NCBI GenBank assembly: GCA_017307375.1
Contig: JAFKFH010000020.1
Location: 62,001-126,000, forward strand
Direction: 5' to 3'
DNA from: Alphaproteobacteria bacterium
GTDB taxonomy: Bacteria; Pseudomonadota; Alphaproteobacteria; Ferrovibrionales; Ferrovibrionaceae
DNA length: 64,000 bases
Shown here one piece after another: positions 43,737-46,817 of the stretch (position 1 is its first letter; every line of letters starts with the position of its first letter). A program made the position numbers and the translations under genes. The notes beneath the pieces are model-generated. The model saw only the letters and a program-made list of their open reading frames with translations, did no database searches and was not told where the DNA came from.

Positions 43737-43757
43737 TCCGCCGCGAAAAAAAACTTT

Positions 43758-43782
43758 GTAACCTTTTCGCCTCGAGTGCGTT
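43758..43782 (+). promoter_or_regulatory. Candidate EcfG (general stress sigma) promoter of the LOV kinase operon
   Basis: GTAAC-N16-CGTT differs by one base from GGAAC-N16-CGTT, the consensus read by EcfG-type sigma factors of alphaproteobacteria. It is 57 bp upstream of the LOV kinase ATG in an otherwise gene-free gap. The mismatch is at a conserved base, so it needs testing. Confidence 0.35.
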
Positions 43783-43839
43783 GAACCTCCCGGTGGGGTT
43801 CGCGGAAGGCGGGCATGACATTTTTCCCAAAGCGCGCTG

Positions 43840-44937
43840 ATGGCTGAGGCGACGCCGATCGATCGGGGGGGCACGGGCGATCTGCTGTTCGGTGCCGTGG
43901 CGGCGTCCGGCCTGCCGATGGTGCTGACCGATCCGCTGGCCGCGGACAATCCGATCGTCCATGCCAATGCCGCGTTCCTGAAGCTGACCGGGTACGGTCC
44001 GCAGGAAATCGTCGGTCGCAACTGCCGCCTGCTGCAAGGTCCAGATACCAATCCGGCGGCAACGGCTGCCATCAGGCGCGCGGTGGCCGCGGGCGAAGCC
44101 GCCAGCGTCGACATCCTCAATTACCGGCGCGACGGCGGCAGCTTCTGGAATGCCCTGACCGTCAGTCCGATCCACGACGCGACGGGCCGCCTGCGCTACT
44201 TCCTTGGCATCCAGCAGGATATCGGCCAGCGCGCCTCCGGGGATCGCGGCCTGACGCCCGACTTCATCGCCCTCATCGCCCATGAATTGCGCAACCCGAT
44301 GACGCCGGTGCTGATGCAGGTCCAGCACCTCTCGCGCCTGGCGGAGAGCACCGAAGACACGCTGCGCCCGCATCTCGACCGGCTGCGCCTGGCGATCGAC
44401 ACCTATATGCGGCGCGCCGCGACCCTGCTCGACCTCGCCCGCATCGCCGCCGGCCGTCTCGACCTCAAGCCCGCGGCGGTCGATCTGGCCGATCTGACCC
44501 GCGCGGCGATCGAACGTCACCAGGCATGGGCGGCCGCGGCCGGATCGCCGATCGGCTATGCCGGCCCGCCCGAGGACCTCGGCTGGTGGGATCGGGCCGC
44601 GCTGGAGCAGATCCTCGACAACCTTTTGTCCAACGCGATCAAATATGGCCCGGGCATGCCGATCTCAGTCACGCTGTCATCGACGCGGGACACGGTGACG
44701 CTGGCGGTGCACGACAAGGGCAGCGGGATCCAGCCGAGTGAACGCGAGCGCGTGTTCGGCCCGTTCGAAAGGCTGATCGGGCCTGATGCCCAGGCCGGCT
44801 TCGGCATCGGCTTGTGGGTCGTGCGCCAGCTGGTCGAGGCCATGGGGGGTAACATCGTAGTTGCCTACGGCCACGAAGCCGGTTCTACCTTTACCGCAAT
44901 CATCCCTCGCGCGGACAGACGACCAGAATCACGATGA
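43840..44937 (+). CDS. LOV-domain sensor histidine kinase (blue-light photoreceptor)
   Basis: 365 residues, no membrane segment. Residues about 20-130 are a LOV domain: flavin-adduct Cys62 in 'GRNCRLLQG', the preceding 'NAAFLKLTGY', flavin-binding Asn94 and Asn104 ('ILNYRRDGGSFWNALTVSP') and Gln125 in 'LGIQQDI'. A HisKA helix with His148 ('IAHELRNPM') and an HATPase domain follow (Asn265 in 'LSNAIKYG', 'DKGSGI', 'FGPFERL', 'GFGIGLWVVRQL'). Blue light should switch autophosphorylation. Its stop overlaps the KaiC-like start (ATGA). Confidence 0.93.
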   Translation: MAEATPIDRGGTGDLLFGAVAASGLPMVLTDPLAADNPIVHANAAFLKLTGYGPQEIVGRNCRLLQGPDTNPAATAAIRRAVAAGEAASVDILNYRRDGGSFWNALTVSPIHDATGRLRYFLGIQQDIGQRASGDRGLTPDFIALIAHELRNPMTPVLMQVQHLSRLAESTEDTLRPHLDRLRLAIDTYMRRAATLLDLARIAAGRLDLKPAAVDLADLTRAAIERHQAWAAAAGSPIGYAGPPEDLGWWDRAALEQILDNLLSNAIKYGPGMPISVTLSSTRDTVTLAVHDKGSGIQPSERERVFGPFERLIGPDAQAGFGIGLWVVRQLVEAMGGNIVVAYGHEAGSTFTAIIPRADRRPESR

Positions 44938-46430
44938 GCATGGATACGGCAGGCATACCCCCTCTGGAACGAGCCGGCAGTGCAATTCCCGGCCTCGACG
45001 CCATCATCCACGGCGGTTTTTTCAAGGGCGGCGTCTACATCATCTCGGGGGCACCAGGTGCCGGCAAGACGGTGCTGGGCAACCATATCTGCTTTCGCCA
45101 CGCCGAGAACGGGGGCCGCGTCCTCTATGTCACGCTGCTCGCCGAATCGCATGCCCGCATGCTGCAGCACATTGCCGGCTTCGCCTTCTACGATGCCGAG
45201 GTCCTGTCGCGCTCGCTGACTTATGTCTCGGGTTTCGGCATCCTGCAGGAAGGTGGGCTGCGCGGCCTTCTCGACCTGCTGCGCCGCGAGATGACCAGTC
45301 ATCGGGCGACGCTGCTGGTCCTCGACGGCTTCGCGGTCGCCGCCGCGGCGACGCCGTCCGAGCAGGAGCTGAAGAAGTTCATCCACGAACTGCAGACCTT
45401 CACGGCGATGCAGGACTGCCTGACCCTGTTGCTGACCAACGGGTTCCGCGGCGACTACCATGCCGAGCAGACGATGGTCGACGGCCTGATCAGCCTGCAT
45501 CGGCAAAGCTACGGCAACCGCGTGGTGCGCGAGCTGGAAGTCCTGAAGTTCCGCGGTTCCGATTTCCTGGTCGGCCGCCATTCGTTCCGGATCGGCGCCG
45601 AGGGCATCACGATCTTCCCGCGGCTGGAGGCGCTGCTGTCGCACGGATCCGGCGACGACCGCTACCGCGCCCACTGTCTGTCGATGGGCGTGCCCGAGCT
45701 CGACGACATGCTGGGCGGCGGCCTGCCGTCCGGCACCACCACCATGCTGCTCGGCCCATCCGGATCGGGCAAGACGACGCTCGGCCTGCATTTCCTCTGC
45801 GAATCGAGCCCGGCCGAACCCGGGCTGCTGTTCGGCTTCTACGAGACGCCGGTGCGGCTGCAGAAAAAGGCCGAGCGGCTGGGCCTGTCGCTGGCCCGCC
45901 CGCTCGAGGACGGGACGCTGGAATGCCTCTGGTACCAGCCGACCGAACAGCTGCTCGACGATCTCGGCGCGAAACTGCTCGATGCGGTGCGGCGGCGTAA
46001 CGTCAAGCGGCTGTTCATCGACGGCCTGGACGGCTTCAAGCAGGCCTCGCCCAATCCCGACCGGCTGATCCATTTCCTGACCGCCCTGACCAACGAGCTG
46101 GGCGTGCTCGGGGTCACCACGATCTGCTCGACCGAGACGAAAGTGCTGGTCGGACCGGAGGTGGTGACGCCGGTGTCCGGCCTGTCGGTCCTGGCCGACA
46201 ACCTGATCCTGCTGCGCTTCGTGGAACTGCGCGCTCAGCTCTACCGTTTGCTGTCCATCCTCAAGGTGCGCGACAACGCCTTCGACGCCGCCCTGCGGGA
46301 ATTTCGCCTGACCAGCGACGGCATCAAGCTCGCCGATACCTTCCGCAGTGCGGAAGATATTCTTAGCGGTGCCGCCAGGCTACAGGACTTGGGCGACGAC
46401 GGCTTGGGCAAGGACAAGAATTTGCGATGA
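44934..46430 (+). CDS. KaiC-like double-domain ATPase
   Basis: 498 residues with two RecA/KaiC domains. Domain 1: 'SAIPGLDAIIHGGFFKGG', Walker A GAPGAGKT (39-46), 'TLLAES' with Glu71, Walker B ending Asp131. Domain 2: 'LSMGVPELDDMLGGGLPSG', Walker A GPSGSGKT (274-281), 'FYETP' with Glu304, Walker B near Asp363, and the KaiC-type end 'LSILKVRDNAFDAALREFRL'. Each catalytic loop has one Glu rather than the EE pair of cyanobacterial KaiC. Non-clock homologues act in stress and signalling. Coupled by ATGA overlaps to the genes on both sides. Confidence 0.92.
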   Translation: MSMDTAGIPPLERAGSAIPGLDAIIHGGFFKGGVYIISGAPGAGKTVLGNHICFRHAENGGRVLYVTLLAESHARMLQHIAGFAFYDAEVLSRSLTYVSGFGILQEGGLRGLLDLLRREMTSHRATLLVLDGFAVAAAATPSEQELKKFIHELQTFTAMQDCLTLLLTNGFRGDYHAEQTMVDGLISLHRQSYGNRVVRELEVLKFRGSDFLVGRHSFRIGAEGITIFPRLEALLSHGSGDDRYRAHCLSMGVPELDDMLGGGLPSGTTTMLLGPSGSGKTTLGLHFLCESSPAEPGLLFGFYETPVRLQKKAERLGLSLARPLEDGTLECLWYQPTEQLLDDLGAKLLDAVRRRNVKRLFIDGLDGFKQASPNPDRLIHFLTALTNELGVLGVTTICSTETKVLVGPEVVTPVSGLSVLADNLILLRFVELRAQLYRLLSILKVRDNAFDAALREFRLTSDGIKLADTFRSAEDILSGAARLQDLGDDGLGKDKNLR

Positions 46431-46789
46431 CCCTCGTCCTGGTGGTCGATGACGAGTGCGGGGTAGCCGAAGTCCTGCAGTTCATCCTGGAGGAAGAAGG
46501 CTATCGCGTACTGACGGCCATCAACGGCAAGCAGGCGTTGGGGCTGATGGCCGGCGACCGGCCTGACGTCGTCATCCTCGACTTCATGATGCCGTTGCTG
46601 GACGGGCCCGGCGTGCTCGCGGCGATGCAGGCCGATGACGGACTGAAAACCATCCCGGTGGTGATGATGAGTTCGCTGGACGAGGCGACGGTCGCGCGCC
46701 GCTGCCGCGATCATCGCGGCTTCCTGCGCAAACCCTTCAGGATCGAGGAGGTGCTGGGCGTCGTCGCGCGGGTACTGGGCCGCCGGTGA
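46427..46789 (+). CDS. Single-domain response regulator
   Basis: 120 residues, receiver domain only: acidic pair Asp8-Asp9, phospho-acceptor Asp52 ('VVILDFMMPLLDGP'), Ser82/Ser83 and Lys102 ('FLRKPFRIEEVLGVV'). With no output domain it must signal by protein contact or act as a phosphate shuttle. Start overlaps the KaiC-like stop, so it is the natural partner of the LOV kinase at the start of the operon. Confidence 0.95.
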   Translation: MTLVLVVDDECGVAEVLQFILEEEGYRVLTAINGKQALGLMAGDRPDVVILDFMMPLLDGPGVLAAMQADDGLKTIPVVMMSSLDEATVARRCRDHRGFLRKPFRIEEVLGVVARVLGRR

Positions 46790-46791
46790 CA

Positions 46792-46817
46792 GGCTGCGCC
46801 GGCATCCCGGCGCAGCC
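46792..46817. terminator. Strong hairpin between two convergent genes
   Basis: GGCTGCGCCGG-CATC-CCGGCGCAGCC, an 11-bp perfect stem with 4-base loop, starts 3 bp after the response regulator stop and ends 13 bp before the stop of the convergent hydrolase. It could terminate both directions, though there is no T-run. Confidence 0.6.

Follow-up and report, generated by a model that had tools for sequence, protein, structure and literature searches.

A LOV-fused histidine kinase beside a KaiC-like ATPase and a stand-alone receiver: a possible light-gated version of a widespread cassette

The Ramlibacter genome paper of 2011 described a 'third (black) kaiC context', a diverse group in which a receiver gene often comes after kaiC and most members keep one KaiC phosphorylation site or none (PMC3164672). 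Fusions of KaiC with a receiver have been reported in archaea as well (PMC5847659). Few roles of KaiC-like proteins outside clocks are established. Here we analyse a cassette in a stretch of 64,000 nucleotides (hereafter, the window) from an alphaproteobacterial genome, in which a KaiC-like gene directly followed by a receiver-only gene, as in the group of the Ramlibacter paper, is preceded by the gene for a histidine kinase with a LOV domain.

The anatomy of this three-gene cassette is near certain. A LOV-HisKA-HATPase_c histidine kinase of 365 amino acids (43840-44937) and a two-domain KaiC-like ATPase of 498 amino acids (44934-46430), both identified by open reading frame, motifs, Pfam and structure matches, are followed by a stand-alone receiver of 120 amino acids, that is, a response regulator without an output domain (46427-46789; open reading frame, motifs and Pfam); all three genes lie on the forward strand. 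The Pfam matches are each above cut-off and comprise PAS, HisKA and HATPase_c in the kinase, KaiC (PF06745) in two stretches of the ATPase, and Response_reg in the receiver. The first-pass annotation had joined the three genes by two ATGA stop/start overlaps, and both are present on the forward strand, between the kinase and KaiC genes (44934-44937) and between the KaiC and receiver genes (46427-46430), as are all the residues that it had singled out, namely Cys62 and His148 of the kinase, the two Walker A motifs and Asp52 of the receiver. The span that it assigned to the operon, 43758-46817, is slightly wider than the genes, which cover 43840-46789, plus the closing hairpin at 46792-46817 (forward strand). 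That GC hairpin, located between convergent genes, is real and perfect over 11 bp (z -3.64, with 1 of 200 shuffles reaching this value), but it does not qualify as a standard intrinsic terminator, given that it has no T-run and is absent from the list produced by the terminator scan. The promoter presumably resides in the 103-bp intergenic stretch that separates an Lrp/AsnC gene from the cassette (43737-43839, forward strand). Upstream of the cassette, a consensus scan recognised no sigma-70-like promoter, and a scan within the window found no EcfG-type stress promoter (GGAAC-N-GTT). EcfG-like promoters (GGAAC-N16/17-GTT) are located within 160 bp 5' of KaiC in five relatives (L018, L035, L036, L045 and L059), whereas the background rate predicts about 0.4. 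This points to the KaiC-receiver pair being under general stress control in some lineages, although not in the window.

So could this gene order be a peculiarity of one genome? KaiC relatives were gathered from genome, plasmid and named-genome collections and the domains around 112 loci were marked by script; removal of four duplicates and of two loci of another KaiC group left 106 loci, the window included. The subfamily so delimited spans 35-54% identity, whereas the second KaiC of the window genome stands at about 30%. In all 106 loci, a sample that leans to near relatives given that its 80 named loci are the best-scoring ones, a receiver-only gene lies directly downstream of KaiC on the same strand, which rules out a chance arrangement. 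In 39 of the 106, KaiC is immediately preceded by a histidine kinase gene of the same strand, mostly at near-constant spacing. Named kinase-KaiC-receiver cassettes come from Alpha-, Beta- and Gammaproteobacteria and from Myxococcota, and KaiC-receiver pairs are found also in Chloroflexota and Bdellovibrionota, so the order is not confined to the window genome. The three proteins co-diverge: comparison of distances for the pairs KaiC-receiver, KaiC-kinase and kinase-receiver gives correlations of 0.78-0.79, whereas the permuted maxima are 0.08-0.32 (KaiC-receiver, r 0.79 against 0.08). Shared species history accounts for part of this correlation. The recurrence of the order in many lineages and this co-divergence bear out the earlier view of kinase, KaiC and receiver as one unit.

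Several variants of the arrangement were seen along the way. In a genome of the same family (L019 / L010), the receiver follows a KaiC gene interrupted by a single in-frame TAG, which would make it a pseudogene, a split gene or a case of sequencing error. A Bdellovibrionales metagenome-assembled genome (L130) carries a tandem KaiC-receiver-KaiC-receiver array. Large plasmids commonly carry KaiC-receiver pairs, some of them near universal stress proteins, ligD, NhaA or hemerythrins.

The receiver of the window has Asp8/Asp9, Asp52, Ser82 and Lys102. Asp52 is invariant in the 108 aligned receivers and Lys102 is present in 106 of the 108, so the receiver is phospho-competent; the acidic pocket and Ser82 are likewise kept across the family. 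Because the receiver has no output domain and KaiC is its constant neighbour, KaiC is likely to be its target; no output gene is linked to the window cassette. The gene linkage also points to the adjacent kinase as the one that would specifically serve the receiver.

The kinases that precede KaiC form a recognisable group. They are typically about 250-300 amino acids long, with a short coil ending in ARDEFI-IAAHELRNPMTP, and Pfam searches of four of them found no sensor domain; most of the 39 are short and sensor-less, with no N-terminal domain. Other architectures are found in two gammaproteobacteria, which have PAS kinases (L039 and L136), in Corallococcus, with receiver-kinase hybrids (L098 and, by script, L106), and at three loci whose kinases have a longer N-terminus (L087, L110 and L112) in which Pfam detected no domain where tested. 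The window kinase, with the phospho-accepting His148 in the motif HELRNP, shares the core LIAHELRNPMTPVLMQV with the cassette kinases at up to 47% identity but has a LOV domain in front, the only one among the 39 loci with an upstream kinase. In a tree whose background consists solely of kinases of the surrounding loci, its core falls among the KaiC-linked kinases, set apart from that background by a 99% branch. A plasmid search with the core returned as the best match, at 45%, the kinase of a Lichenicola KaiC cassette (the next match being at 37%), and the best match within the class outside the genome itself is again a cassette kinase. By sequence, then, the window kinase belongs to the KaiC-linked group. 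Because its core groups with kinases that are mostly sensor-less and yet the LOV domain is unique among the 39, the simplest reading is that a kinase already dedicated to KaiC acquired LOV by fusion, not that a general LOV kinase moved beside KaiC; in this reading, the direction of change is the one that we infer. The invariant KaiC-receiver pair across several phyla, together with a dedicated kinase that is mostly sensor-less, points to a general role for the receiver in regulating this KaiC group.

The sensor itself, which occupies approximately residues 23-130 of the kinase, is well supported as a true LOV domain by sequence and by its predicted fold, in agreement with the initial assignment. 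The adduct-forming Cys62 resides in GRNCRLLQG, within the NCRxLQ motif, and the flavin-contacting Asn, Asn and Gln are all present ahead of a HisKA/HATPase_c kinase with its phospho-accepting His. The closest solved structures of the sensor are LOV photoreceptors, with the NCR.LQ, NY, WN and IQ residues aligning to those of YtvA, and the predicted fold reaches a Z score of about 21 and an rmsd below 1 Angstrom to several solved LOV domains. Coupling to the kinase is another matter. In known LOV kinases a continuous coil runs from LOV to the kinase. The linker in the window protein, RASGDRGLTP (approximately 131-141), is short and contains Gly and Pro, and in the monomer model, for which the alignment had few LOV rows, the LOV helix stops at 132 and the helix resumes at 140, with pLDDT of about 50 in between. 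Given this short linker and predicted helix break, unlike the coil of the known LOV kinases, it is uncertain whether light controls the kinase.

As for other LOV proteins, the genome has only one further LOV match at the threshold used, in a large multi-PAS kinase whose gene precedes that of a receiver protein (L144; G000:C9). At three other KaiC-receiver loci (L042, L082 and L123), a true LOV domain is found in a protein of its own, encoded within about 1-4 kb and on the opposite strand. A phylum sample averages about 0.33 LOV matches per genome, which makes three in roughly 1 Mb of flanking sequence more than expected, and a loose link between light and KaiC may recur in other loci. A literature search for LOV in combination with KaiC returned only a paper on Myxococcus photomorphogenesis.

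The KaiC-like protein is a double ATPase of the PF06745 family, with two RecA-like domains and a model that matches full-length KaiC crystal structures over both (Z 36.7 over 437 residues). The Walker A motifs, GAPGAGKT (residues 39-46) and GPSGSGKT (274-281), are intact and conserved, as is one catalytic Glu in each domain (Glu71 and Glu304). A profile alignment to solved KaiC structures places Ser418 at S431, Val419 at T432 and Tyr303 at the E318 position; thus, neither the S431/T432 phospho-pair of clock KaiC (here Ser418/Val419) nor its CII catalytic pair E318/E319 (here Tyr303/Glu304) is complete. The clock-type model TIGR02655 scores 138 against a cut-off of 546. The first-pass annotation had noted the absence of KaiA and KaiB locally; a search of the genome, rated 100% complete, found no match to KaiB anywhere, whereas the control search finds KaiB of S. 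elongatus. Membership of the protein among clock KaiCs is ruled out by KaiB, T432 and E318, and a clock function of the cassette is unlikely. An ATP-driven switch is plausible, whereas a Kai-type cycle of phosphorylation is implausible. The other KaiC of the genome (L021; G000:C38:420000-436000) adjoins acetate kinase and is followed by an overlapping PAS-kinase-receiver hybrid, a context that resembles the 'second' kaiC context (PMC3164672).

The hypothesis that we favour, at a probability of roughly one half, is that the locus represents a widespread cassette of histidine kinase, KaiC-like ATPase and receiver that is here gated by light, with blue light acting through the receiver on KaiC; within this explanation, it is a light-set switch and not a self-sustained clock. 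Blue light would produce the flavin-Cys62 adduct in the LOV domain, the adduct would change autophosphorylation of His148, and the phosphate would pass to Asp52 of the receiver. The receiver, either phosphorylated or unphosphorylated, would then bind the KaiC-like ring and alter its ATPase or assembly state, and KaiC in turn would act on some stress or physiology target. Phosphotransfer, target and output are all steps that we infer. The more specific proposition, blue-light input to a KaiC-family ATPase via a two-component relay that arose when a sensor-less kinase, dedicated to the KaiC-receiver pair, gained LOV by fusion, and that operates without detectable KaiB, is to be held more tentatively.

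Information could also flow in the reverse direction, with the KaiC-like ATPase sensing or gating by the ATP/ADP state and binding the kinase as KaiC binds SasA, the receiver being an output that diffuses to other partners and light an extra input. SasA binds the CI domain of KaiC, the corresponding structure (PDB 6x61) is among the structure matches of the KaiC model, and KaiC-interacting kinases have been proposed for a neighbouring kaiC group (PMC3164672). The many loci without an adjacent kinase, in which KaiC and the receiver always stay together, speak for this reading too. But by Pfam the cassette kinases have no SasA-like N-terminal domain, most having none at all, and the constant partner of KaiC is the receiver, not the kinase, so we regard the reverse direction as rather unlikely. 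Slightly less probable still is a LOV domain that no longer controls the kinase, or that serves as a redox or flavin sensor, in a cassette that works like its sensor-less relatives. That these relatives function without a sensor, that the linker model shows no continuous signalling helix and that the fusion is found in the window genome only are all compatible with such uncoupling, but the photochemical residues are all kept in a cassette that elsewhere shares only about 45-60% identity with its nearest relatives, and this points to selection acting on LOV. Finally, a timer, a possibility raised in the initial reading, would be an hourglass or circadian device that runs without KaiB and is entrained by blue light; it is compatible with the KaiC fold and with a serine that 94 of 108 relatives keep at the S431 position but is highly improbable given the missing KaiB, the Val and Tyr at T432 and E318, and the one or no phospho-site in most of the receiver-paired kaiC group (PMC3164672).

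Light gating of the relay, if it holds, would give the cassette a defined, switchable input, blue light, such that control of a KaiC ATPase by a kinase and a receiver becomes testable in vitro with a lamp. How, then, does the locus compare with the systems already described? It shares with Brucella LOV-HK and the YtvA-FixL chimera YF1 the placement of LOV ahead of a histidine kinase, and its LOV domain is 51% identical to that of Brucella (3t50) in the structural alignment; it differs from these in its HisKA-type kinase, in the short and probably broken linker, and in a core that belongs with the KaiC-linked kinases. KaiC-like proteins of environmental Pseudomonas, another non-cyanobacterial host, are reportedly linked to stress resistance and biofilm in work by Terrettaz et al. 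from 2023. A Pseudomonas locus in our set (L136, for which we do not assume orthology to those proteins) has the order PAS-kinase, KaiC, receiver, but the PAS domain of its kinase lacks the LOV cysteine motif. With the cyanobacterial KaiABC and Rhodobacter KaiBC systems the window protein shares the double RecA-like KaiC fold, and it departs from them in the undetected KaiB, in the changed T432 and E318 positions, and in the presence of a receiver and a kinase in the operon. Closest is the third context of Ramlibacter (PMC3164672), with the same pairing of KaiC and receiver genes and similarly degenerate phospho-sites; the text of that paper makes no reference to LOV, whereas in our set one subfamily keeps the KaiC-receiver order throughout and the upstream kinase of the window is LOV-fused. 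The KaiC-receiver pairing has thus been known since 2011, and what is new, within the loci and literature searched, is the fusion of LOV to a kinase of the KaiC-linked group, seen once in the sample.
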